DNA of 64,000 bases from Candidatus Altimarinota bacterium (GTDB lineage: Bacteria; Patescibacteriota; Gracilibacteria; BD1-5; UBA6164): assembly GCA_028696815.1 (NCBI GenBank), contig JAQVGG010000001.1:1-64000 (forward strand), in the 5' to 3' direction. Of the stretch, positions 446 to 43,632 are shown piece by piece (position 1 is the stretch's first letter; each line of letters starts with the position of its first letter). The notes below the pieces were generated by a model that searched no databases, was not told the origin of the DNA, and worked only from the letters and a program-made list of their open reading frames with translations. Position numbers and translations under genes: made by a program.

Positions 446-1009
446 ATGAGTTCAAATAATACATATCCTAAATCTATGATGTTTTATCATCTTTTATGAT
501 TTTTACTTGTAATTGCTGCATATGTAACTATATCTATGACAGATTTGTTTCCTAGATGAAGTTCTTTACGCGGAGTAGCTATACAAACTCATTTTTTAGT
601 ATGAATTATATTAATAATGTTTTTTATTCCTCGTTTTTTTATACGTGTTAAGAAGTTTAAATCTATACCTCCTATTACTCCATCTCTTAGTAAAAATAAT
701 AAAATTCTTGCAAATTTAGGACATTTTGCTTTATATGCTTGGATGGTAATTATGCCACTTCTTGGTTGGGCACTAGTAAGTGCAAATTATGGAAGTGTTA
801 ATATCTATGGAATTAATATTCCATGAATAATAGCTCAAAATAAAGAGATAGCTTCATTATTAAAAGAGCTTCATGAGGTTTTTGCAGGACTTGGTATGTT
901 TTTAATTATTGGGCATGTAGTTATGGCTTTATGGCATCATTTCAAGAAGCAAAATAATACAATGATTCGTATGTTTCCATGGTTTAAGTGGGGAATGAAG
1001 AAAGACTAA
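446..1009 (+). CDS. Cytochrome b561 family protein
   Basis: A 187-residue integral membrane protein with four predicted membrane helices. Candidate haem-ligating histidines lie near the start of helix 1 (FYHLLGF), in QTHFLVG, in LGHFALYAW and in IIGHVVMALWHH. Family members are di-haem b proteins that move electrons to or from quinones. Only the middle part is open in the standard code; TGA codons at residues 18, 38 and 52 read as glycine. It may feed the quinol pool used by the NO reductase at 8.2 kb, which is an inference. Confidence 0.85.
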
Positions 1010-5328: not shown

Positions 5329-7941
5329 ATGAAAATAAAAGTAATAAAAAATAGGGAATGAGATATGATTCCTTTTGATAAAAGTAGAATCGATAGAGCT
5401 ATTGAAAAATGAGCTGAACATGCTTGATATAGTGATTTTTCTTTTATAGATGCTATTTGAGATAAAGTAGTAGCTAGATTAAAAGATATAATTATAAGTT
5501 TTGAAGGAGAAAAGGTTTTAGAGATAGAAGAAATTCAAGACAATGTAGAAAAAGTACTGATGGAAGAAGGGTATTTTGATATAGTAAAAGCATATATCAT
5601 CTATAGAGCAGATAGAAATAAGGCTAGAGAAAAAAGAAGAGAACAAGTAGAGAAAAAACTAGAAAAACAAACTTTAAAAATAGTAAAAAGTAATTGAGAG
5701 AAAGAAAACTTTGATATAGAAAAAGTTAAAAATACATACAAAATTGTTTCTTTCAAACTAGCAAGAAAATGTAGATTTGAAGATTTGGAAAAGTCTTTAA
5801 GAAAGTATATTGTAGAGGGTATGAAAACTTCAGATATACTTAAGATGATGATAAAATCTGCTATAGATCTTATATCTGTGGAAAATACTTCTTGGCAGTT
5901 TATAGCAGGAAGATTACAACTTCTTGATATTTATAAACAAGCTTCAAGAAATAGAAGTATGGATATCAAAAAAATCTATGAACCAAAACAATATCTAAAA
6001 CTTTTTAAGGAGTATGTAGATAAAAAACTCTATTACAAAGATTTTTTCAAATACTACTCTGAAGATGATATACTAGAAGCTTGAAAACACCTTAAAAAAG
6101 ATACTGACTTTTCATACAATTATACAACAGTGATGATGTATAACAAAAGGTATCTTTTAAATCCAAACAAGATAATAAAAGAACTTCCTCAAGAGATGTA
6201 TATGAGTGCCGCATTATTTTTAGCTATTCCTGAAAGTGATGAAACAAGACTTGATGTAGCAAAAAAGATTTATGATTATTGTTCTACAGGTAAAATCTCT
6301 CTTCCTACACCAACTCTACTAAATGCTAGAACAAACTTTCATCAACTATCTAGTTGTTTCAAGTTCAATGTAGATGATGATTTAAGAGCAATTTACCATA
6401 GTATAGAAAATATGGCTCAAGTATCAAAATTTGGTGGTGGTATTTGAGTGTATCTTGGAAACATAAGATCAAGAGGTGGTTATATCAGATGAGTAAAGGG
6501 TGCAGCTTGAGGAGTTAATCCATGGATAAAAGTTATAAATGATACTGCTATTGCTGTAAATCAACTTTGAGCAAGAGCTTGAGCTATAAGTGTAACACTA
6601 GATGTATTTCATAGGGATATATATAGCTTCCTTGATTTGCAAACTGAAACTTGAGATATTAGAAGTAAAGCTTTTGATATATTTCCAGCAGTTACTTTTC
6701 CTGATTTATTTATGGAAAGAGTACAAGAAAACTGAGATTGGACACTTTTTGATCCAAAAGAAATTAGCGATAAAGTATGAAAAAAACTCCAAGATCATTT
6801 TTGAGAAGAGTTTGAGAAGTTTTATGTAGAGTGTGAAAAAAATGAAGATTTGGAACTGAAAAAAGTAGTTAAAGCAAGAGATCTTTTTAAGAAATTTATG
6901 AAAGCAACAGTTGAAACAGGTATGCCATATGCTTTTTTTAGAGATACAGTAAACGCTGCAAATCCAAATAAACATGCTTGAAATATATATAGTACTCAAC
7001 TTTGTGTAGAGATATGTCAAAATACATCTACTTCTAAGTTTATAGAAGAAGAAATAGAAGATTGAAAAGTAGTAATTAAATATGAGCCAGGTGATTCAGT
7101 AGTATGTAACCTAGCAAGTATAAATGTTGCAAAAGTAAATAAAGATGAAGATATAAAGGAAATAGTCCCAGTTGCTATGAGAGTACTTGATAATGTAATA
7201 ACTCTAAACTTTTACCCAGTAAAAGAAACTGAAATAACAGCTAAAAAATATAGATCTGTATGACTTGGGTTTTTATGACTTGCTGAATACTTAGCAACTC
7301 ATAAGCTAGCTTATGACAGTAAAGATGCTCGTGATGTTACTGATAAGTTATTTGAAAAATATGCTTATCATACACTAAAAGCCTCAAATAAACTTGCAAA
7401 AGAAAGGTGAGTTTATAAGGTTTACGAAGGATCTGAGTGGTCAAAAGGTATACTTCTTTGAAAAGATGCCTCATGGTTTAAGAAAAACTCAGGTATGTCA
7501 GATAAATGGTTAAAATTAATAGAAAATATCAAAAAAGATTGAGTTAGATTTGCTTATCACTTAGCTCCGGCTCCAAATACTTCTACAGCACTTGTTATAT
7601 GAACTACTGCTTCAGTGCTTCCTATATACAAAAAATATTTTGTAGAAACAAATGCAGTTGCTCCAAGTGTAAATGTAGCACCAAATCTAGATGAAGATAA
7701 TTTTTGGTATTATAAAGAATATGTAAATTTAGATATGAATGATGTAATAGATATGGTTTCAGTTATATATAAATGGATAGATCAATCTATAAGCTTTGAA
7801 TGGTTGGTTAATCCTCAAAAAGTTTCTCCTATTGAATTATATAACTACTATCTAAAATCATGGAAACAAGGTATAAAAACAGTGTATTATGTAAGATCTA
7901 TGAGTCTAGAAGTTAAATGATGTGAAAGTTGTAGTGGATAG
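5329..7941 (+). CDS. nrdA: Class I ribonucleotide reductase, alpha subunit
   Basis: An 870-residue catalytic subunit that reduces ribonucleoside diphosphates. Two ATP-cone domains appear in tandem at the N-terminus (about residues 1-95 and 110-200), suggesting elaborate allosteric activity control. The barrel has LPTPTLLNA, SSCFKF (active-site cysteine), FGGGIGVYLGNIR, QLCVEICQNTS and NLASINVA. The C-terminus ends CESCSG, carrying the redox-relay cysteine pair. More than 30 TGA codons lie in frame. Its radical-generating partner NrdB is at 14313-15356, separated by norZ and the class III genes, an unusual spread. Confidence 0.95.
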
Positions 7942-7979: not shown

Positions 7980-8020
7980 TTAAAAAAGTTTATGCTATAT
8001 ATTGTATAAACTTTTTTATT
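7980..8020 (+). terminator. Terminator after nrdA
   Basis: An inverted repeat AAAAAAGTTTATGC / GTATAAACTTTTTT closes with a T run. A second small palindrome, TACCACAATATATGGTA, follows at about 8023-8039 and may be an operator; no regulator can be assigned. Confidence 0.7.
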
Positions 8021-8161
8021 TTACCACAATATATGGTATAAAATATATACAAACTTAGTCAATCTAAAATCAGTACAATTATTTGCAAGTTAAGGGATAT
8101 TTAGTATAAAGAGAGATACTATGTACACATCATAATAGTGTATATTTTACTTTTTAATTTT

Positions 8162-10507
8162 ATGCTTATGAAGCAATCTTTGTTGGATAAGTTTATGACA
8201 ACAAGATACCTTGCTTGGACTTTTTGGGTCTTGGTTGTGGTTATGGTATCATCACTACTTTTTTTTACTGCAAATCTAGGTAAAGAGATTCCTCCAATAC
8301 CTGAACTTGTTAGATCAGAAAATGGAGAAGTACTTTATGAAAAAGATGATATAGTACAATGAAAAGCGTACTTTCAAGAGTTTGACTTAACTGACTGGTG
8401 ATCTTTTTTGGGTATGTGAGCTTATATTTGACCTGATTTTTCAACTGACTTTTTCCATAATAGGGCAGTTTATCTATATAACTACTATGGAAATCAAAAT
8501 TTTTGAAAAGGGATAGATGAGCTAAATCTTATTGAAAGATGAGCAATAAAAGAGATGACAAAGATTGATTTTAATAACACATTTTTAAGAGAAAATGAGG
8601 TAATCTATACTGAAGCTTCAGCTCTAGCTTACAAAAATAATATAGTTAGATTGCAAGATATGCTTCTTAATTGAGATCCTTCAAGATGATATCCAGGGTG
8701 ATTTATAAAAGACTGACAAGTAAAAACATGGGACTGAAAGATAGAAACTGCTACAGCAGAAGAAAAAGTAGAGAAAATAGCTGCATTTATAGACTGGTCA
8801 CAACTTGTTGCATCTAGTCCTAGACTTGACTATGAAACAGGACTACCAGAAAATGATGCTAGAACATGGTCAAACGACTGGCCAAATGAACCTTTAGTAG
8901 ATCAAGATATATCATGGAGAGCACACGTAACTTCTCTTTGGGCATTTTTACTTCTTTGGGTTTTTAGTATATTTGTTGTATTTTTAGGTTACATGTATTT
9001 CTTTAAACCAGAAGATAAAAAAGACCTAGAAAAACCTTTAAAAGTAACAAAGATGTTTCCTTCTCAAACTAAGTTACTTAAATACGTTCCTGTAGTCGTT
9101 GCTTTATTTGTTCTTCAAATGTTTTTATGAGGTTATTTAGCCCATATATATATAGATCCCACTATGCCTTTTACATTTCCAGGACTTGAAAAAATAATTA
9201 ATATACCTCAAGAAATATTACCATTTAATGCTATTAGATCAATTCATACTCAATTAGCTATTTTATGGATAGCTGTAGGTTGGCTTGTTGGATGACTTAT
9301 GATAGCTCCTTGGGTGGCTTGAAAAGACCATAAGATTCCTTGGCTTGTTGATGTACTTTGGATAGCTATTTTAATTATTGCTGTTTGAAGTTTAGCTTGA
9401 CTTTATGCATGAGCAACAGGTATGTTACCAGAATCTTGGTTTTGGCTAGGTAATGAATGAAGAGAGCTTATAAACTTATGAAGACTTTGGGATTTTGCTT
9501 TAGTTTGAGGTTTAGTATTTTGGTTTTTGATGATTGTTTCACTTCTTAAAAAAGCAACTACAAATAATCCACTTGCTTCAGTTATAGTTTGGTCTTCGTT
9601 TGCGATAGCTTGATTGTATGTAGCTTGAATGATACCTTTTCATCAAATCATGCCAAACTTTACAGTTGATGATTTCTATAGATGGTGGGTAATTCACTTA
9701 TGGGTTGAATTAACATTTGAACTATTTGCGGTTTGAGTTATTGCTTTCTTTACGGTTTCACTATGACTTGTTTCACAAAAAAGTGCTGTAAAACTTATGT
9801 TGTTTGAACTTGTGCTTGTTATGTTTAGTTGAACTTTATGAGTATGACATCATTATTGGTGGCAAGGTCTTGATAGTCATTGGATAGCAATTTGAGGAAT
9901 ATTTTCTGCACTTGAACCAGTACCACTAGTACTTTTGATAGTTGAAGCATGGAATAATTATAGAGAAAAGACTTTCTGAGGAGAAAAATTTGAATGGTGA
10001 ACTGTATTTATGTGGATATCAGGTTCAGCTGTACTTAACTTTATTTGAGCATGATTTTTATGAATGGTTATAAATACGCCAACTATTAACTACTATTCAC
10101 ACGGTACTTATCTCATCATGCCTCATGGTCATGTAGCTTTGCTTTGAGCATTTGGTTATATAGCTATAGCATTCCTGTATCTTGTGGTTAGATCATATGC
10201 TCTGTCAAATAAACATGTATGGAATACAAAACTTACTAATACTTGATTTTGGCTGTTAACTATATGATTATTACTTTTTGCTCTACCTACAATTATCATT
10301 GGTTTCCATCAAGCTGGAACAGCATTTGATATGTGATATTATGCTGCTAGATTACATGAATCTTTGGCTCCTGTAGAGGGATGGATGTGGTTTAGGGTAA
10401 TACCAGATACGATGATGCTTCTTGGTTGAATAGCTATATTTTTTGATTTAGTTTTAAAAATATTTTTTGGTAAGAAAGCCAATACAAGGAGAAGTCAAAA
10501 TAAATAA
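8162..10507 (+). CDS. norZ: Quinol-dependent nitric oxide reductase (qNOR)
   Basis: A 781-residue haem-copper oxidase superfamily protein that reduces 2 NO to N2O using quinol. An extracytoplasmic domain (about residues 30-225) between helix 1 and the NorB-like core marks the single-subunit qNOR type. Metal ligands are visible: H362 (HTQLA), the non-haem iron site H512 with E516 (IHLWVELTFE) and H563/H564 (GVGHHYWW), and H655/H657 (MPHGHVALLGAF) for the two haems. At least 14 membrane helices. The start is ATG at 8162; an upstream GTG at 8138 is less likely. No partner NorC or denitrification genes lie nearby. A role in NO detoxification or respiration with cytochrome b561 is inferred. Confidence 0.93.
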
Positions 10508-10542
10508 GAAAAAAGTCAATCAAAAATTATAAAAAAATTTGA

Positions 10543-10601
10543 AATACACAACATATAGTGTATGATATAAATATCAATACACTATATGTTGTGTATTTTT
10601 T
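10543..10601 (+). promoter_or_regulatory. Paired NrdR boxes upstream of nrdD, also hairpin-terminator
   Basis: Two 16-base boxes match the ACAC-N8-GTGT form of NrdR sites: ACACAACATATAGTGT at 10546-10561 and ACACTATATGTTGTGT at 10579-10594. Their centres are 33 bases apart, about three helix turns, the usual NrdR arrangement. The boxes are also mirror copies, forming a long hairpin ended by six T, so the same DNA may terminate norZ. NrdR itself is encoded at 13758. Confidence 0.8.
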
Positions 10602-10621: not shown

Positions 10622-12826
10622 ATGCCTATTTATAAAGTAAAAAAGAGGAATGGAGCGATTGTTACATTTGATAAAAGTAAAATAGAGGAGGCTATAAAAA
10701 AAGCTATAAAGGCTGTAGGATGAGATGATTTTTCTCATGTAGTGTCTATAACAAATATAGCTATAACACTTGTTGAATCTAAAATTTGAAATAATATTCC
10801 AACTATAGAACAGTTACAAGATGAAGTGGAAGAGGCGCTGATAAAAGAAGGTCATGATAAAGTTGCAAAAGCTTTTATACTTTATAGACAAAAAAGAGCT
10901 GAATGAAGAAGCGATCAAAGTGTGGTAATTGAAGTATGACAAAGTATGGATGAATACCTAGAAAAATCAGATTGGAGAGTAAATGCCAATGCAAATTCAG
11001 GTTATTCTCTTTGAGGTATGATTTTAAATATTTCTTGAAAAGTAACTGCAAATTATTGGTTATCACATGTTTACCCAGCAGAAATCTGAAACTTACATAG
11101 AAACGCAGATGTTCATATACATGATCTTGATATGTTTTGTGGATATTGTGCAGGATGGAGTTTGAGAGCATTACTTGAAGAATGATTTAATGGTAGTGAT
11201 AACAGAATAGACTCTTCTCCAGCAAAAAACTTGCAAGCAGCGGTAAATCAGATGATTAATTTCTTATGAACTCTTCAAAATGAATGGGCATGAGCACAAG
11301 CATTTTCAAGCTTTGATACATATCTAGCACCATTTGTTCATAAGTTTAAAGAAGAGTTAATAGAAGAATTAGAGCAAGTTTGAGCAACATTTGTATCGGA
11401 AAAAGACAGAGAAAATTTTATATATGATAAGACATATAAGTATGTTTATCAACAAATGCAAAATTTTATTTTCTGACTAAATGTACCTAGTAGATGGGGG
11501 ACTCAAACACCATTTACAAACATAACTCTTGATTGGACATGTCCTGATGATTTAAAAGAAAAGGCATTATTTTTAGGAGGGATGGATAAAGGTTATTACA
11601 AGAAAAAATATGGAGAACTAGAAGATGAGATGAAAATTATAAATAGAGCTTTAATAGATGTATATGTTAAATGAGACAATAAATGAAGAGTATTTACATT
11701 TCCTATACCAACTTACAATATAACTCCTGACTTTCCTTGGGATGATAAAGATATAGATGCACTTTTTGAGATGACAGCAAAATACGGTCTACCTTACTTC
11801 CAAAATTTTGTATGAAGTCAGTTTAAGAGAGTAAAAAAGGAAGATTGAAGTTTTGATACAGTAGAAAACCCAGATGCATATAAACCAGGTGCAGTTAGAT
11901 CTATGTGTTGTAGATTGCAACTTGATTTAACTCAACTTGAGAAAAGATGAAATGGATTATTTGGTAGTGCTGAAATGACTTGAAGTATATGAGTAGTTAC
12001 ACTTAATATGGCAAGAATAGGTTATAACCATAAAGGAGATAAAGAAGCTTTTAAAAAGAGAGTAGCTTACTTGATGGAACAAGCAAAAATATCTCTAGAG
12101 TTAAAGAGAAAAACTATTACAAAATGGTTAGATGAATGACTTTATCCTTATACATACAGATACCTAAGAAGTTTTAGAAATCACTTTTCAACTATAGGAT
12201 TAAATGGTATGAATGAGGCAATACTAAATTTTACAAACTGAAAAGAAGATATAAGTTCTACTTGGGGAAAACAGTTTGCAACAGAGATCATTGATTTCAT
12301 GAGAGAACATTTAAAAGAGTATCAAGAAGAAACTTGAAATCTGTATAATTTAGAAGCAACTCCTGCTGAGTGAACAACATATAGGTTTGCAAAAGAAGAT
12401 AAAAAACAGATGCCAAATATAATACAGGCTTGAACAAATGAAGCTCCTTATTATACAAACTCATCACAACTTCCAGTTTGATTTACAGATGACGCCTTTG
12501 AAGCGCTAGAAGAGCAAAATGAATTGCAATGTAAGTATACATGATGAACAGTTCTTCACTTATATATGGGAGAAAGATTAAGTGATAGTAGTGCTTGTAA
12601 GAACTTTGTAAAAACAGTATTGAGTAATTACCAACTTCCATACATAACTATATCTCCAACATTTTCTATTTGTCCTAAACATGGATACATAAATGGAGAA
12701 CATGATTTTTGTCCTAAGTGTGATGCTGAAATAGGATATGCTTGAGCTAAATATGATTTAGAAACAAGAGTAAAATACACGGATGATGAAAAGAAAATTA
12801 AAGAGTTGGAAGTGGTAGAAGTTTAA
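10622..12826 (+). CDS. nrdD: Anaerobic ribonucleotide reductase catalytic chain lacking its glycyl-radical domain
   Basis: A 734-residue class III RNR. It has an ATP cone (residues 1-95), VHIHDLD...CGYCAGWSL with the active-site cysteine, SMCCRLQLDL with the radical-transfer cysteine, and a C-terminal zinc site CPKH...CPKC. In normal NrdD the glycyl-radical loop (RVxGY) follows the zinc site within some 20 residues. Here the chain instead runs on about 35 unrelated charged residues and stops at TAA. The missing loop is encoded by the next gene, 25 bases downstream. It is active only without oxygen. Confidence 0.92.
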
Positions 12827-12851
12827 TTTTATATTTTTTAACTATATTATT

Positions 12852-13013
12852 ATGTCAGCAATATTTATAAATGAAAAAGGTCAAGAAGTAGAAAGAACTA
12901 GATGTCAAATATATACTAGAGTTATGGGATACCATAGACCAGTAACTAGTTTCAATATTTGAAAAAAATCTGAGTTTTATTCAAGAGCTTATTTTAAAGA
13001 AAATTGTAAATAA
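12852..13013 (+). CDS. Stand-alone glycyl-radical domain of NrdD
   Basis: A 53-residue protein whose core, RCQIYTRVMGYHRPVTSF, is the glycyl-radical loop that ends ordinary NrdD proteins; the radical glycine is the GGA codon in RVMGY. The tail (GKKSEFYSRAYF) also matches NrdD C-termini. It has its own ATG and an 18-residue N-terminal extension, so it is not a simple frameshift product. NrdG, which installs the radical, starts 2 bases after its stop codon. It presumably docks into the NrdD barrel as a separate subunit, as YfiD does with pyruvate formate-lyase. Confidence 0.85.
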
Positions 13014-13015
13014 TT

Positions 13016-13717
13016 ATGCAAATTTCAGCATTAACAAAATTTTCTCTTATTGATTTTCCTGGGCAGGTTGCCTGTATTGTATTCACACCTGGATGTAATT
13101 TTAGGTGTGAATTTTGTCATAACTCAGAATTTGTTTTACCAGAAAAATTAAGTGAAGTGTATAAAAATTTAATTCCTATAACTTCATTTTTTGAATTTTT
13201 AGAAAAAAGAAAGTGACTTTTGACTGGGGTTTCTATTTGTTGAGGTGAACCTACTATGCAAAAATGACTCTTAGAGTTTTGTAGAAAAATAAAAGAGATG
13301 TGATTTTTAGTTAAACTTGATACAAATTGAAGAGATCCAGAAATATTAAAAGAACTTTTAGATAAAGGTTTAGTTGATTATGTAGCAACGGACATTAAAA
13401 ATAAAATCTGAAGCCTTAGTGATTTAGCTTGAGTTAATGTTGATGAAAAAATATATTTACAAAGTATAAGGGTGCTTCTAGATTCTGAAGTTGATTATGA
13501 GTTTAGAACTACTGTTATAAAATGAGTACATGATGAACATGTAATTGAAAATATAGCTAAATATATAACCACTGCCAAAGCTTATTATTTGCAAAATTAT
13601 AAATGATGAAATACTCTAAATCCAGATTTCAAAGGTCAAAGTTTTACAGAATGAGAATTAGAGAAATTTAAACAAATAGCAACTCAATATATAAAAAATG
13701 TTTGAATAAGAGAGTAA
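13016..13717 (+). CDS. nrdG: Anaerobic RNR activating enzyme (radical SAM)
   Basis: A 233-residue radical SAM protein. The cluster motif CNFRCEFC (C-x3-C-x2-C) is at residues 27-34, followed by SICGGEPTMQ, the SAM-binding GGE motif with both glycines as GGT/TGA type codons. It belongs to the NrdG2/PflA-like branch that begins with SLIDFPG. It would generate the glycyl radical on the small domain protein encoded immediately upstream. The operon order nrdD, radical domain, nrdG, nrdR is tight. Confidence 0.92.
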
Positions 13718-13757: not shown

Positions 13758-14204
13758 ATGTATTGTGTTGTTTGTTGAAATCAAGATACAAAAGTAATTG
13801 ATTCAAGAGTTTCTGATGACTGAAAAGCTATCAGGAGAAGGAGAGAGTGTGAAAATTGTCACAATAGATTTACCACTTTTGAAAAGATAGAAGTTATAAA
13901 TCTAGTAGTTGAAAAATCTGGAAATAGAAAAGAGAGATACAATAGGGAAAAGCTAGAAGATAGTATACTAAAAGCAGTAAACAAAAGAAAGATAAGTGTT
14001 ATGGCTATCAATTCTGTACTTGGGCAATTAGAACTTAAGTGGACTCATAAATCTGAAATCAGTTCAAAAGAGATATGAAGAGAAGTGATGAACGCACTTC
14101 TTGCTTTGGATGAGGTAGCTTATATCAGATATGCATCAGTTCATCTAAACTTTGAAACAGCTAAAGATTTTATAGATTTTATTCAAGAAAAAATTAAAAA
14201 ATAA
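13758..14204 (+). CDS. nrdR: Transcriptional regulator NrdR
   Basis: A 148-residue ATP-cone repressor of ribonucleotide reductase genes. The N-terminal zinc ribbon is CVVCGN...[17 protein letters not shown] and the ATP cone follows from about residue 48 ([17 protein letters not shown]). Both glycines of the ribbon loops come from TGA codons. The paired NrdR boxes at 10546-10594 are the clearest target in the window. Confidence 0.95.
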
Positions 14205-14312: not shown

Positions 14313-15356
14313 ATGACACAAGAAATGCAAGCAAACCTTATATTTAATCCAAAAGGAGATGATGATGTTGCAAAAAGAACAATTATAAACTGAAACTCAA
14401 CAGGTCTGTTTCAATTAAATGCTGTAAAATACAACTGGGCTAAAAGTCTTTATCAAGTTATGATTGGTAACTTTTGGGTTCCTGAAAAAGTAAAAGGTTT
14501 ATGAGATGATGCAGTTTGTTTCCACAATGAACTATCAGAAGAAGAAAGAAGAGCCTATAAAGGTATATTATCATTTTTGATATTTTTAGATAGTATACAA
14601 ACTATAAACCTTCCAAATTTTAACGATTTTATAACTGCTCCAGAGGTAAATTTAATTTTATCTATTCAAGCTTATCAAGAAGCAATTCACTCTCAATCAT
14701 ATGCTACTATGCTTGAAACTATAGTTGATAGTAAAGAGAGAAATGAGATTTATTATTTCTGGAGAGATGATAAGCATCTTCTTGAGAGAAATGAGTTTAT
14801 AGGACAAATATATCAAGATTTTATAGATGATCCAAGTGAGAAAAATTTCTTTAGATGAGTAATTTGAAACTTCTTACTAGAAAGTATATATTTCTATAAC
14901 TGATTTGCATTTTTTGATACTCTTGCAAGTCAATCAAAGATGGTTGCAACAGATAGGATGATTAATTACATTAGAAGAGATGAGCTAACACACGTAACTA
15001 TTTTTGCAAATATTATCAGAGAAATACAAAAAGAGTTTCCACATATCTATGACGAAAAGATGATTTATGACATGATGGATACAGCAGTAAATCAAGAAGT
15101 TAAATGGTCTAAACATATACTTGGAAAAGGTATAGTTGGTATGGGACATGAAAATATAGAAAACTATACAAAATGGTTAGCAAATGAGAGACTAAACATG
15201 CTAGGGCTTAAACCTCTTTACACAGATGTAGTAAGCAATCCTTACAAACATCTAGAACTTATGCAAGAAAATAACTCTGAGAAAGGTAATTTCTTTGAAT
15301 CTACAGTTACAAATTATGCGCAGTCATCTGCGATGAATGGAAGTTGGGATTTTTAA
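14313..15356 (+). CDS. nrdB: Class I ribonucleotide reductase, beta subunit
   Basis: A 347-residue ferritin-like protein that houses the di-iron tyrosyl-radical cofactor for NrdA. Visible ligands: D in FLDSIQ, E and H in QEAIHSQSY with the radical tyrosine four residues after the histidine, E in LLESIYF, and E/H in RRDELTHV. The C-terminal tail, which docks to NrdA, ends NGSWDF. It lies downstream of nrdR rather than next to nrdA. Having both class I and class III enzymes suggests the cell meets aerobic and anaerobic conditions. Confidence 0.95.
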
Positions 15357-22251: not shown

Positions 22252-24141
22252 ATGGAAAAACAAAGTTTTAGCTTAGAAGAGCTATATATAGCTTATAAAG
22301 ACTGTATAAAAAATAAAAAATCTTCTAAAGATTATTTAAACTATGAGTTAGAGTATTGAAAATCAGATTTAGTAAAACTACTACAAGAAATAAACAGTAA
22401 AACATACAAAGTATGAAGAAGCTATTGTTTTATAGCTTATAAACCAAAGATAAGAGAAATATTTGCATCAAGTTTCAGAGATAGGATAGTTCATCATCTA
22501 TTAGTTTGAAAACTAGAGTGATATTTTGAAAAAAGATTTTATAAAAATGTTTTTAGTTGCAGAAAAGAAAAGTGAGCGTTACTTGGTGTTAAAACTTTGT
22601 ATAAGGATTTACAGAAAATACCTAACTGTCATTGACGGGCTTGATATCACTGTCATTGACAGGCTTGATATCACTGTCATTATCCGGCTTGACCGGATAA
22701 TCTAGGAGAGTTTAATCAACTCTCTAGATCCCCGTGTTGATCCCCGTGTCAGGCACGAGGACGAGGATGACAAGTAAAGAAAGATTTAATATGACAAAGA
22801 AATGAAGAATGGTGTTATTTACAACTAGATTTAAAATGATTTTTTATGAATATAGATAAAGATATACTCTATAAATTAATAAATAATCACATAACAAAGA
22901 AAAACTTTGAAAATCATCTACTTTTAAGATACCTTATAAAAGAAATTATTTATAATGATCCAGTAGCTTGAGTTGAAAAAAGGTGAAAACTATCTTTGTA
23001 TAAACTAGTACCTAAATCCAAAAGTTTATTTTGAAGACCAAAAGGTAAATGACTACCTATATGAAATCTTACAAGTCAGTTTTTTGCAAATATATACTTA
23101 AATGAATTGGATAATTATATAAAAAGAGATTTAAAAACGGCTTATTATTACAGATATGTAGATGATTTTATATTACTTTGAACAAAGCAGGAGTTAAAAA
23201 ATAAATTTAATAAAATAGAGATATTTTTAGAAAATATGCTAAAACTTAGATTATCAGAAAACAAGACAAAACTTCTACCAGTTACTTATGATATAGATTT
23301 TATAGGCTATGTTATAAGAGCAAAGAAAATTATACTTCCAAGAAAAAGAAATATAAACTCTTTTAAAGATGTTGTATATAAACAAAAAATAAATAATAAA
23401 GATGTAGTTGATCATACATTTTCAAGTATAAACTCATATCTTTGAATACTAAGAAATACTAAATCATATAATCTAAGAGAAAAATACTTAAATAAATTAA
23501 ATGATATTGTCTTTAAGCAAAATCTTGATTATTTAAAGATTACAAAAGATAATGAATTATACTATATTTTAGATTCTAATAAAAAGCCATTGAAAAAATA
23601 TAAAGAAGTCCAAGAAAAATATAAAGATCATGTAATTATAGTACAAGTAGGATGTTTTTATAAGGTATTTGATAGACAAGCTATATATTTTTCAGAGAAA
23701 ACTTGATTAAAGTTAACTATTTTTAATCCTAAGACTAAAGCCGAAAGGATTATGTGTTGATTTCATGAAAAAAGTTTAGAAAAGTATTTAGGATTGATAG
23801 AAAAAGAAAATATAAATTCAGTTGTATTAAAGCAAATTAAAACTAGTGATAATAAAATAGAAAGAGAGATTTATAAAATTTATAAGTTTGATGCTAAAAA
23901 TAATATACCTATATATTCAAGAGAAACTATTGAAGAAATAAAAGCAAATTATTATAAAAAATACTTGAGTAAAAGTAGCTTATCTCAGGATACACAAAAA
24001 GATGTTTCAGAAAAAGAAACATCTTTTTTAGATATAGAAAAAGAGTTTTTAAAAGATTTCAAATCTAGAGATTTTAAAGATCAAACATACTATGAACTTA
24101 TTGAATACATCATAAAATGGAAAAATAGCCTAAAAATTTAA
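22252..24141 (+). CDS. DGR reverse transcriptase with C-terminal MutS-I-like domain
   Basis: A 629-residue protein. RT motifs include YLQLDLKGFFMNI (catalytic Asp), GLPIGNLTSQFFANIYLNEL (the I-G-x3-S-Q form typical of DGR enzymes) and YRYVDDFIL with YVDD at residues 302-305. Residues about 445-560 resemble MutS domain I (VIIVQVGCFYKVFDRQAIYF, then ERIMCGFHEKSLEKYL), and the tail is charged. Such MutS-like modules are known DGR accessories; here one is fused. Residues about 125-174 are encoded by a family D repeat with seven in-frame TGA codons. It lies between VR and TR and would copy template RNA with errors at adenines. Confidence 0.93.
22624..22775 (+). repeat. Family D repeat inserted in frame in the RT gene
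   Basis: Two tandem copies of ACTGTCATTGACxGGCTTGATATC followed by TATCCGGCTTGACCGGATA, then CTCTCTAGATCCCCGTG with a TGTCAGGCACGAGGACGAGG tail. It encodes about 50 Gly/Cys/Pro-rich residues just before the RT motif with the first catalytic Asp. It would be full of stops under the standard code. Confidence 0.85.
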
Positions 24142-32297: not shown

Positions 32298-33881
32298 ATG
32301 CACAAACAAAAAAATGCTTTTACTTTAGTTGAATTAATAGTAGTAATAACAATATTAGCTATTTTATCTACTATAGCATTTATAAGTTTATCATGATACT
32401 CACAATCAGCAAGAAACTCTGCAAGAACTACAGATGTAAAAACAATTGAAAAGGCTCTTCAATTATATGGAACAAGAAATAGTATATATCCACAACCTGA
32501 AAATGCTCAAACCATTACATACTCATGAGAAGTAGTATACTATCAATGAACATTTTGAGATAGTCCATATAAAGAAGTCTGAAACTTAAGTAATATACCC
32601 CTAGATCCACTTACAAAGGAAGAATACATTTACTCAACAACTGCTAACTATACACAATATGAAATATTAGCTATTTATGAGTGAGAAATAGTAAATAAAA
32701 GTATACTAAACCAAGCACAAGCAGCAGAAGTATACAAACCTAAAATAACTTGAACATATAATAAAATATATGTAAAAACAAACTCATACTATATACCACT
32801 ACCAAGTCTAATTAACGCGGAAGTAACAAGTGCATCATGAGTGGTTTTAGATTTAAATACAATTAAATCACAAATAGTAACAAACTGAAAAAATCTACCA
32901 AAAGTATGAGCTACAGTAGAACAAGTAAAGAATGAGCTACAAATAAACTTTAGGCCACATTATTGAACTATAACAAGAAATTCATCAGAGGCAGAAAAAA
33001 AAGCACTAGCAGAAAAACTTAAGGAAGCTTATTCTTGATCAGATTTAGTATCACAAACTATATATGCAAATATAGTAAATAATTCAAGTACAGAGGAGTT
33101 AGTAAGTTTAGTAGATTCAGTAGTATTATGACAATGAACATATACAGATTATACTATAACTAATACTACAACTTGTACGGATACTCAAACACCAACGGAT
33201 GAACAATACTTTACATTTGATTCATCAACTCAAACAATAACTGCATACGATGTAGCTTGATGAATAGATGTAGTTATACCATGTAAAATATGAGATAAGT
33301 ATGTAAAGAAAATATGACAAGTTGCATTTTATAGTAAATGATTAACAAGTATAGTTATACCAAGTAGTATTGAAGAAATTGAAGATTGAGATTCATGAAA
33401 TAGGTGAGGCTTAGGTAATGCTTTTTGATGAAATTTATTAACTACTTTAGTTTTACCAGAAGGATTAAAGAAAATATGAGATTATGCATTTTTTAGTAAT
33501 AGTTTAACAAGTGTAACTATTTCATCAAGTGTAACAAGTATCTGAGCTTATGCATTTTTTAATAATAGTTTAACAAGTGTAACAATCCCGAATAGTGTAA
33601 CAGGTATATGAAATTATGCTTTTCGGTATAATTCATTAACAAGTGTAATAATACCAAATAGTGTGATAAGTATATGAGATTGAGCTTTTCGAACAAATTC
33701 ATTAACAAGTGTAACAATTCCATCAAGTGTTACAAGTATATGAACTTATGCATTTGGTGAACAAACTAATTCTGTTTGAGATTGAACTGTATACTGACCA
33801 GCTAGTTGGGAGAATACATATATTAATAATACAAATAGTGAGTTTGATAAAGATAAGTTAATAAACTATGAGGTACAGTAA
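32298..33881 (+). CDS. Prepilin-like protein with BspA-type leucine-rich repeats
   Basis: A 527-residue paralogue of the DGR target. The prepilin signal is NAFTLVELIVVITILAIL and the shared module runs to about residue 235 (YYQGTFGDSPYKEVGNLSNIP is nearly identical in all three). The C-terminus has a BspA/LRR_5 domain: units of about 23 residues with consensus NSLTSVTIPxSVTSIGxYAF, four or five copies at about residues 395-500. BspA repeats mediate protein-protein adhesion. There is no VR-like sequence at its end. Confidence 0.9.
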
Positions 33882-41691: not shown

Positions 41692-43632
41692 ATGAACAAA
41701 CAAAAACAAGGTTTTACCCTGGTAGAACTAATAGTAGTTATAACTATATTAGCTATCCTAGCAACAATAGCTTTTATCTCACTATCATGATATTCTCAAG
41801 ATGCAAGAAACTCTAGTAGAGCAAGTGATGTAAAAACTATAGAGAAATCACTTCAACTTTATGCTACAAGAAACTCTGTCTACCCAACACCAGAAAACCC
41901 TCAAACTGTATCATACTCATGAGATACAGTATACTACCAATGAACATTCTGAGATAGTCCATACAAAGAAGTATGAAATCTAAGTAATATACCACTTGAT
42001 CCACTTACAAAGGAAGAATATATTTACTCAACAACAGCTAACTATACACAATATGAAATATTAGCAATATATGAGTGAGAAATAGTAAACAACACTATAT
42101 TAAATCAAGCACAGGCAGCAGAAACATATAAACCAAAAGTAAACTGAACATATAACAAGATATATGTAAAAACAAATAAATACTATGTACCACTACCAAG
42201 TATAATAAATGCAGAAGTTACAAGTGCTACATGAGTGGTTTTAGATTCAAATACAATCAAATCTCAGATAGTAACAAACTGAAAAAATTTACCAAAAGTA
42301 TGAGCTACAATAAATCAAACAACACAAAATCTTACAATAAATTTTGCACCATACTACTGAACAATCACATCTACTTCTTCAGATGCAGATAAAATAGACT
42401 TAGCACAAAAGATCCAAGAAGCCTACTCTTGATCAGAACTACAAACACAAGCTATATATGAGAATATACTAAGTAAAACTGCAACAGAAGCACTAGTAGT
42501 ATTAGTTGATAGTGTCGTACTTTGAAAAGTGTCAAATATAGTAACTTTAAATACAAATAATAATTGATTATATATTTCCCAAATAGCTTCTTCTGATAGT
42601 TATACATGTGCATTATTAAATGATTGAACAGTAAAATGTTGGTGATATAATGCTTCTTGATACTTATGAGATGGAACTTTTGACGATAGTTTAATACCAG
42701 TATCAGTAACATGATTAACATGAGTAAAACAAATTGCAACAGACTTTTGATGATGGCATACGTGTGCACTATTAAATGATGATACAGTGAAATGTTGGTG
42801 AGAATGAATGGATGGACAATTATGAAATTCAACATGGGATGATGATAGTAATGTACCAGTATTAGTAACTTTATTAACATGAGTAAAACAAGTATCTGTA
42901 TGAAATTGGCATACATGTGCATTATTAAACGATGATACAGTGAAATGTTGGTGAAGTAATCCACCTTGAGCTTTAGGAGATTGAACATTAGATAATAGTA
43001 ATGAACCAGTGTTAGTAACATGATTAACATGAGTAAAAAAGATATCAGCTTGAAGAGAATTTACGTGTGCATTATTAAACGATGATACAGTGAAATGTTG
43101 GTGAGGAAATTATAGTTGAAGATTTTGAAATTGAAATACTGCAAATAGTTTAGTTCCTATAGATTCATGATATACTTGAGCGTTAGATATAGCTACTTGA
43201 TGATGGCATCTTTGCGTTTTAATGAACGATAATACTGTTAAATGTTCCTGAGATAATGCTAGTTGACAGTTATGAGATAACAATTCTCCTACAGATAGCT
43301 CTATACCAGTAAGTGTTAGTTGACTAACAGGAGTAAAGAAAATATGAGCTGGATATTATTTTTCTTGTGCACTATTAAATGATGGTACAGTTAAGTGTTG
43401 GTGAGATAATGATAGTTGACAATTATGAGACTGAACTACTGCATCAAGTAGTACTCCTGTAGATGTTTCTTGATTAACTTGAGTTTCAGATATATCTGTT
43501 TGATGATGATATGTATGTGCAGAGTTAAATGACTGAACAGCAAAATGTTGGTGAGAAAATAGATATTGACAATTATGAGACTGAACAATAAATGAATCAC
43601 ATGTTCCAGTTTCTGTCCAGAACATAAATTAA
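41692..43632 (+). CDS. Prepilin-like protein with RCC1-type repeats
   Basis: A 646-residue paralogue of the DGR target, with signal QGFTLVELIVVITILAIL and the shared module to about residue 230. Residues about 300-640 hold seven repeats of about 48 residues with the core CALLNDxTVKCWGxNxxGQLGDG and spacer PVxVTGLTGVKxI, as in RCC1/BLIP-II-like beta-propellers; each repeat has a conserved cysteine pair. A seven-bladed propeller on a pilus is a plausible ligand-binding head. No VR-like sequence is present. Confidence 0.92.

Follow-up and report, generated by a model that had tools for sequence, protein, structure and literature searches.

A quinol-type nitric oxide reductase gene located within the ribonucleotide reductase cluster of recoded Gracilibacteria

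The organism studied here is a tiny, host-dependent bacterium of the Gracilibacteria in which the stop codon UGA is translated as glycine, and the window referred to throughout is the whole 64,000-nucleotide stretch analysed from one contig of its genome (G000). Towards one end of this window, genes for class I and class III ribonucleotide reductases (RNR) are found together in the order nrdA-qNOR-nrdD-(53-aa glycyl-radical ORF)-nrdG-nrdR-nrdB, with the gene for a quinol-type nitric oxide reductase (qNOR) inside the group. The initial annotation, which spoke of an ‘RNR region’, was therefore right to place qNOR between nrdA and nrdD, a linkage that we find conserved in three genera (G000 and two further carriers, G109 and G117), but the region is better described as an ordered RNR gene cluster that includes both qNOR and a small glycyl-radical ORF. 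The features discussed below are as follows.

446..1009, + strand: cytochrome b561 family membrane haem protein, a possible quinone partner
5329..7941, + strand: nrdA, large subunit of the class I RNR, carrying an ATP-cone, identified by profile matches
7992..8039, + strand: weak NrdR-box-like pair in the nrdA-qNOR gap, 13/16 each and 32 bp apart, not conserved in relatives
8057..8090, + strand: promoter element AGTCAATCTAAAA ... TTGCAA (-35-like) ahead of qNOR, conserved in G109 and, with one change, in G117
8162..10507, + strand: qNOR (NorB/NorZ type), 781 aa with 38 TGA codons read as Gly, identified by homology, Pfam, ligands and fold
10514..10544, + strand: matching element AGTCAATCAAAAA ... 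TTGAAA ahead of nrdD, the sole other strict match in the genome
10546..10594, + strand: NrdR box pair over the nrdD promoter, 15/16 each and 33 bp apart
10622..12826, + strand: nrdD, catalytic part of the class III RNR, without the glycyl-radical motif at its C-terminus
12852..13013, + strand: separate NrdD glycyl-radical domain, 53 aa (RVMGYHRPV)
13016..13717, + strand: nrdG, radical SAM activase, in an order conserved in relatives
13758..14204, + strand: nrdR repressor
14313..15356, + strand: nrdB, small subunit of the class I RNR, with its radical tyrosine in the context EAIHSQSY

The class III enzyme is encoded in two pieces: of the 581 positions in the NrdD profile, NrdD reaches no further than 548, and the 53-aa ORF (MSAIFINEKG...YTRVMGYHRPV...) spans profile positions 548-579. 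Each of the seven family genomes with nrdD that were examined shows this split (window 10622-13013; L087, L117-L121), and a separate ORF for the glycyl-radical domain is likewise found in an epsilonproteobacterial MAG (L066:5877-6071). Between nrdA and qNOR, G109 and G117 possess a short conserved zinc-ribbon-like frame of the CFMCGN...CVACLPQVIHG type (L006 5700-5820; L005 ~1090-1208), none of which was seen in the window. Elsewhere in the window, a reverse transcriptase domain is joined to a stretch resembling MutS domain I (22252-24141), and two pilin-like proteins (32298-33881 and 41692-43632) have N-methylation/T2SSG starts, fused to leucine-rich repeats and to RCC1 repeats; these two are possible surface attachment proteins.

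Read in genetic code 25, the interval 8162-10507 (+) gives an uninterrupted frame of 781 aa containing 38 in-frame TGA codons, whereas under code 11 the longest same-strand frame inside the region is 74 aa; the gene stays open solely if TGA is translated as glycine. The ORF tool picks a GTG start at 8138, and relatives are better matched by an ATG at 8162 or 8168. TGA makes up 58% of the glycine codons of qNOR, as compared with 28-77% in other window genes, which implies full adaptation of the gene to its recoded genome and upholds the earlier view that TGA-glycine codons throughout mark it as well established. The presence of these codons along the whole gene, together with its occurrence in three genera, led us to reject contamination or a chimera as its origin.

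The predicted protein has the single-chain layout expected of a qNOR, with a NorB cytochrome-c-like N-terminal domain (PF22085, residues 47-241, 2e-32) fused to the NorB core (COX1, PF00115, residues 306-749, 5e-51), and aligns to the qNOR structure 3ayf over residues 23-771. The nearest solved structures by sequence are likewise qNORs (3ayf, Geobacillus, E 1.2e-123; 6fwf, 1.6e-96). An AlphaFold model built from 22 homologues (mean pLDDT 73, pTM 0.78) was used for a Foldseek search, in which qNOR structures came top (TMq ~0.80, E ~1e-31), ahead of cNOR and cbb3. Across 82 homologues, the columns H362, H512, E516, E520, H563, H564, E585, H655 and H657 (query numbering) are invariant; from 3ayf and cNOR we take these, E520 aside, to comprise the haem b/b3 histidines, the three His and one Glu of FeB, and a second Glu near the active site. 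The quinol site of 3ayf presumably consists of H328, E332 and D746. Within the window protein H328 (likewise invariant in the 82 homologues) and D749 are kept, while Geobacillus E332 aligns to D332 in a column that varies between D, E, N and others. The absence of CXXCH from the 781 residues indicates that the N-terminal domain carries no haem c, as expected of a quinol enzyme. An alternative identity as NO dismutase (Nod), an enzyme which we assume to be recognisable by altered active-site His/Glu ligands relative to qNOR, was rejected, as every canonical NOR ligand is present. By every sequence test, then, this is an ordinary qNOR, and homology, the ligand columns and the fold all bear out the first identification of it as one with a full set of haem and iron ligands. 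Such an enzyme would catalyse 2 NO + 2 H+ + quinol -> N2O + H2O + quinone at the haem b3/FeB site.

The qNORs of Geobacillus stearothermophilus (3ayf/3ayg) and of Neisseria/Alcaligenes (6l3h, 8zgp, 8bgw) share with the window protein the full-length single chain, the haem/FeB ligands, the NorB cytochrome-c-like N-terminal domain and the fold; the window protein differs in being only ~28-32% identical to them, in its 38 UGA-glycine codons and in its host cell, which lacks quinone synthesis genes. Closer relatives are found in Bacteroidales, Melioribacter and Zixibacteria MAGs (mostly L007-L042), whose qNORs are ~58-64% identical (~60-64% over full length) and are the nearest outside Gracilibacteria; the loops of the window protein are ~35-40 aa longer than in Bacteroidota homologues. 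A phylogenetic analysis, which the initial annotation had suggested as a way of finding the donor, was performed with a further phylum qNOR (G573, see below) as outgroup. Here the three Gracilibacteria qNORs form one clade (support 100) on a long stem (0.73), nested in a 41-sequence clade (support 99) that is mostly Bacteroidota, plus Ignavibacteria, Zixibacteria and Desulfobacterales. The MAG qNORs of this Bacteroidota/FCB-type clade probably represent the donor side. Their loci differ from that of the window, having the standard code and no RNR genes within the flanks fetched.

Within the class, qNOR was found in three of 353 genomes: the window's own, G109 and G117, which represent three genera of one family. 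In each the gene lies within the RNR cluster, ordered nrdA-qNOR-nrdD-nrdG-nrdR-nrdB in G117 and nrdA-qNOR-nrdB in G109, where no nrdD match was found in the genome, implying loss, and no nrdG or nrdR in the RNR cluster. A wider sample of 380 phylum genomes added a single qNOR, in G573, which has no TGA codons, is 36% identical to the window protein and falls outside its clade, indicating a separate acquisition. Since the three recoded qNORs form one clade inside the Bacteroidota/FCB-type clade, the simplest reading of the tree is one old transfer, between nrdA and nrdD, into an ancestor common to the three genera, followed by vertical descent and losses; exchange of qNOR within the family along with flanking RNR genes is a possible alternative history.

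This distribution bears on whether the RNR neighbourhood means anything at all. The linkage could be an inherited accident instead of a product of selection: a qNOR acquired by chance in a nrdA-nrdD gap that tolerates insertions might be weakly kept, or work only sporadically. The relative G085, which has no qNOR, does have an unrelated opposite-strand gene in this otherwise empty site, between nrdA and nrdD-nrdG-nrdR-nrdB, and qNOR is absent from 350 of the 353 class genomes, including most family members and even G118, a member of the same genus as the carrier G117. Against this, the three qNORs are intact at 71-76% identity with every ligand retained, G109 keeps its copy despite the loss of nrdD, and a promoter element is preserved at qNOR in all three genomes and is common to nrdD. 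With these observations in hand, we think such neutral hitch-hiking quite unlikely.

The promoter element in question consists of AGTCAATnnAAAA, then 10-14 bases, then a TTG -35-like box. It lies 100-105 bases before the qNOR start in all three carriers (with one mismatch in G117), and is also found upstream of nrdD in G000 and G117. Across the 1.19 Mb genome a strict version of the pattern has two matches, which coincide with the qNOR and nrdD promoters, with none for a reversed control, and a relaxed version has two matches in the window, both at these same promoters, where a Markov model expects 0.4; as the pattern was chosen after viewing these promoters, its conservation across genomes is the stronger evidence. 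Further strict matches in G109 and relatives were set aside as background, one lying between convergent gene ends and most others being intragenic. These data suggest that qNOR has its own promoter and, because the same element stands upstream of both genes, that it is most likely expressed together with class III RNR. The element points to a tie between qNOR and the class III (anaerobic) enzyme rather than class I.

The stress or redox regulon proposed for this locus at the outset thus gains a shared element, but finds little in the NrdR boxes, which before qNOR are weak and not conserved. The pair in the nrdA-qNOR gap is seen in G000 alone, its first copy falling within the loop that an A+T-rich inverted repeat after nrdA would form, and no box of at least 12/16 was found upstream of qNOR in G109 or G117; control of qNOR by NrdR was rejected on these grounds. 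Membership of a Crp/Fnr/Dnr regulon was likewise rejected, as no Crp-type HTH (PF13545) was matched at E<=0.001 in G000, G109 or G117. In Pseudomonas, the NO sensor Dnr is needed for nrdJ, the anaerobic RNR gene, and within biofilms for nrdD as well (PMC4860495), a case that may serve as a precedent for coupling NO to anaerobic dNTP supply. Campylobacterota loci also bring the genes near one another, with qNOR within a few kb of nrdD-nrdG (L066) or of nrdG (L055), but differ in having intervening genes and another gene order, with an Rrf2-like regulator (by eye) beside qNOR in L066.

Sources of haem and quinone, which had been left to be sought in the rest of the genome, were found only in part: haem synthesis is encoded from porphobilinogen on, while HemB and any UbiA-family enzyme are missing. 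HemG, HemN, HemE, HemD, HemC and HemH are encoded in one 5.6 kb stretch of another contig of G000 (C26; L116:2902-8505); HemG, HemN, HemE, HemC and HemH pass NCBIfam equivalog cut-offs, and HemD was identified by Pfam only. TGA makes up 75-100% of the glycine codons in these genes, and a foreign origin of the contig was rejected, since its tetranucleotide signature differs from that of the window's contig no more than parts of the latter differ among themselves. Searches for HemB in 14 family genomes, G000 included, found no match. Haem would thus be largely covered by a recoded HemC-D-E-N-G-H set. A ferrochelatase above the curated cut-off was detected in just two of the 353 class genomes, G000 and a second Gracilibacterium (G070, L139) that also has the complete HemC-to-HemH set. 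A search of G109 and G117 gave no ferrochelatase match, so these must import haem if their qNOR works.

UbiA-family prenyltransferases were looked for without a match in G000, G109 and G117, the assemblies of which are 98.8%, 93% and 81% complete, respectively. If the assemblies are taken as complete, neither menaquinone nor ubiquinone can be made by a known route, nor can haem O be synthesised, so that quinone must be scavenged or replaced. HemG, which is of the menaquinone-dependent protoporphyrinogen dehydrogenase type (NCBIfam), and cytochrome b561 nevertheless hint at a quinone pool. The latter, recognised from the beginning as another haem membrane protein near qNOR, is confirmed at 446-1009, but was not found in G109 or G117 and is present in only two of the 14 family genomes tested.

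These same observations might be read in terms of energy conservation, with qNOR ending a minimal respiratory chain that uses NO from neighbours as electron acceptor, and with scavenged quinone fed in by b561 or by a dehydrogenase that escaped detection. No other haem-copper oxidase or terminal oxidase was found in the genome, leaving qNOR as its sole haem-copper reductase; the HemG type and b561 make a quinone pool plausible; and a precedent exists in UBA1550, a CPR genus with qNOR plus cyo (PMC12931201). What weighs against this reading is the lack of UbiA in the carriers, the lack of a dehydrogenase partner adjoining qNOR in any of them, and a promoter that links qNOR to nrdD, not to energy genes. 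Energy conservation by qNOR is, moreover, disputed. We consider a respiratory role fairly improbable. That the enzyme mainly reduces O2 with quinol, shielding the anaerobic RNR, is very improbable: the genome has no detected terminal oxidase and some NORs reduce O2 slowly, but this is a side activity in characterised qNORs, and all NOR-type residues are kept here, including the FeB Glu E516 and E585.

A qNOR in CPR bacteria was known before: its presence in UBA1550 is published (PMC12931201), and a review cites a Parcubacterium with a nitric oxide reductase (PMC10221324). UBA1550 and G573 resemble the present case as host-dependent CPR bacteria without an ordinary electron transport chain. The UBA1550 study used Prodigal with at least 50% coverage and leaves code 25 unmentioned (PMC12931201), a method that might miss recoded genes. 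A further parallel is the cytochrome bo3 of Saccharibacteria and Doudnabacteria (PMC6031116, PMC8407418), again a quinol-dependent haem enzyme in CPR with quinone synthesis incomplete, and quinone scavenging has been proposed for T. rhizospherense, a Saccharibacterium with cytochrome bo3 (PMC6031116; see also PMC8407418). It differs in being an oxygen reductase, and T. rhizospherense has the last haem step only, as against HemC-to-HemH in G000. What appears to be new is the conserved genomic context; in the literature searched, whose coverage is incomplete, we found no description of qNOR in Gracilibacteria or in an RNR cluster.

Returning to detoxification, the explanation that we favour, at somewhat better than an even chance, is of an NO-detoxifying qNOR that was acquired once, was kept in the RNR cluster, and is co-expressed with anaerobic dNTP synthesis using scavenged quinol. 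In outline, a Bacteroidota/FCB-type donor would have passed the gene to the ancestor of three Gracilibacteria genera, where it inserted between nrdA and nrdD. It would be expressed with class III RNR under anoxia or in response to NO from denitrifying neighbours or the host, and would remove NO that damages the radicals and Fe-S centres of dNTP synthesis, namely the NrdB tyrosyl radical, the NrdD glycyl radical and the NrdG cluster, while also providing a small electron sink. Protection of the class I radical, as first put forward by the initial annotation, is a hypothesis that the NrdB tyrosine context EAIHSQSY makes possible. The cell's own HemC-D-E-N-G-H would supply haem b, starting from porphobilinogen, and quinol, for which the cell has no known route, would be scavenged from host or prey membranes. 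The NO reduction, the induction alongside nrdD, the protection of RNR radicals and Fe-S centres and the quinone scavenging are all steps that we infer. A fuller version, in which a host-dependent Gracilibacterium has made NO defence a permanent part of its dNTP locus, under an element shared with anaerobic RNR, with quinol drawn from the host membrane and haem finished from imported porphobilinogen, would make qNOR a respiratory-type detoxification enzyme running on borrowed electron carriers; it is offered tentatively, as less likely than not.

The interest of the finding lies in its host, in the conserved RNR location, in the shared element, and in haem synthesis that stands beside no quinone pathway. 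If the favoured explanation is true, it would provide a concrete case of a quinol-dependent membrane enzyme run without quinone synthesis, and would tie NO resistance directly to DNA-precursor supply. These data also suggest that standard annotation can overlook respiratory and haem genes in recoded (UGA=Gly) genomes, so that the metabolic poverty of Gracilibacteria may be partly overstated.
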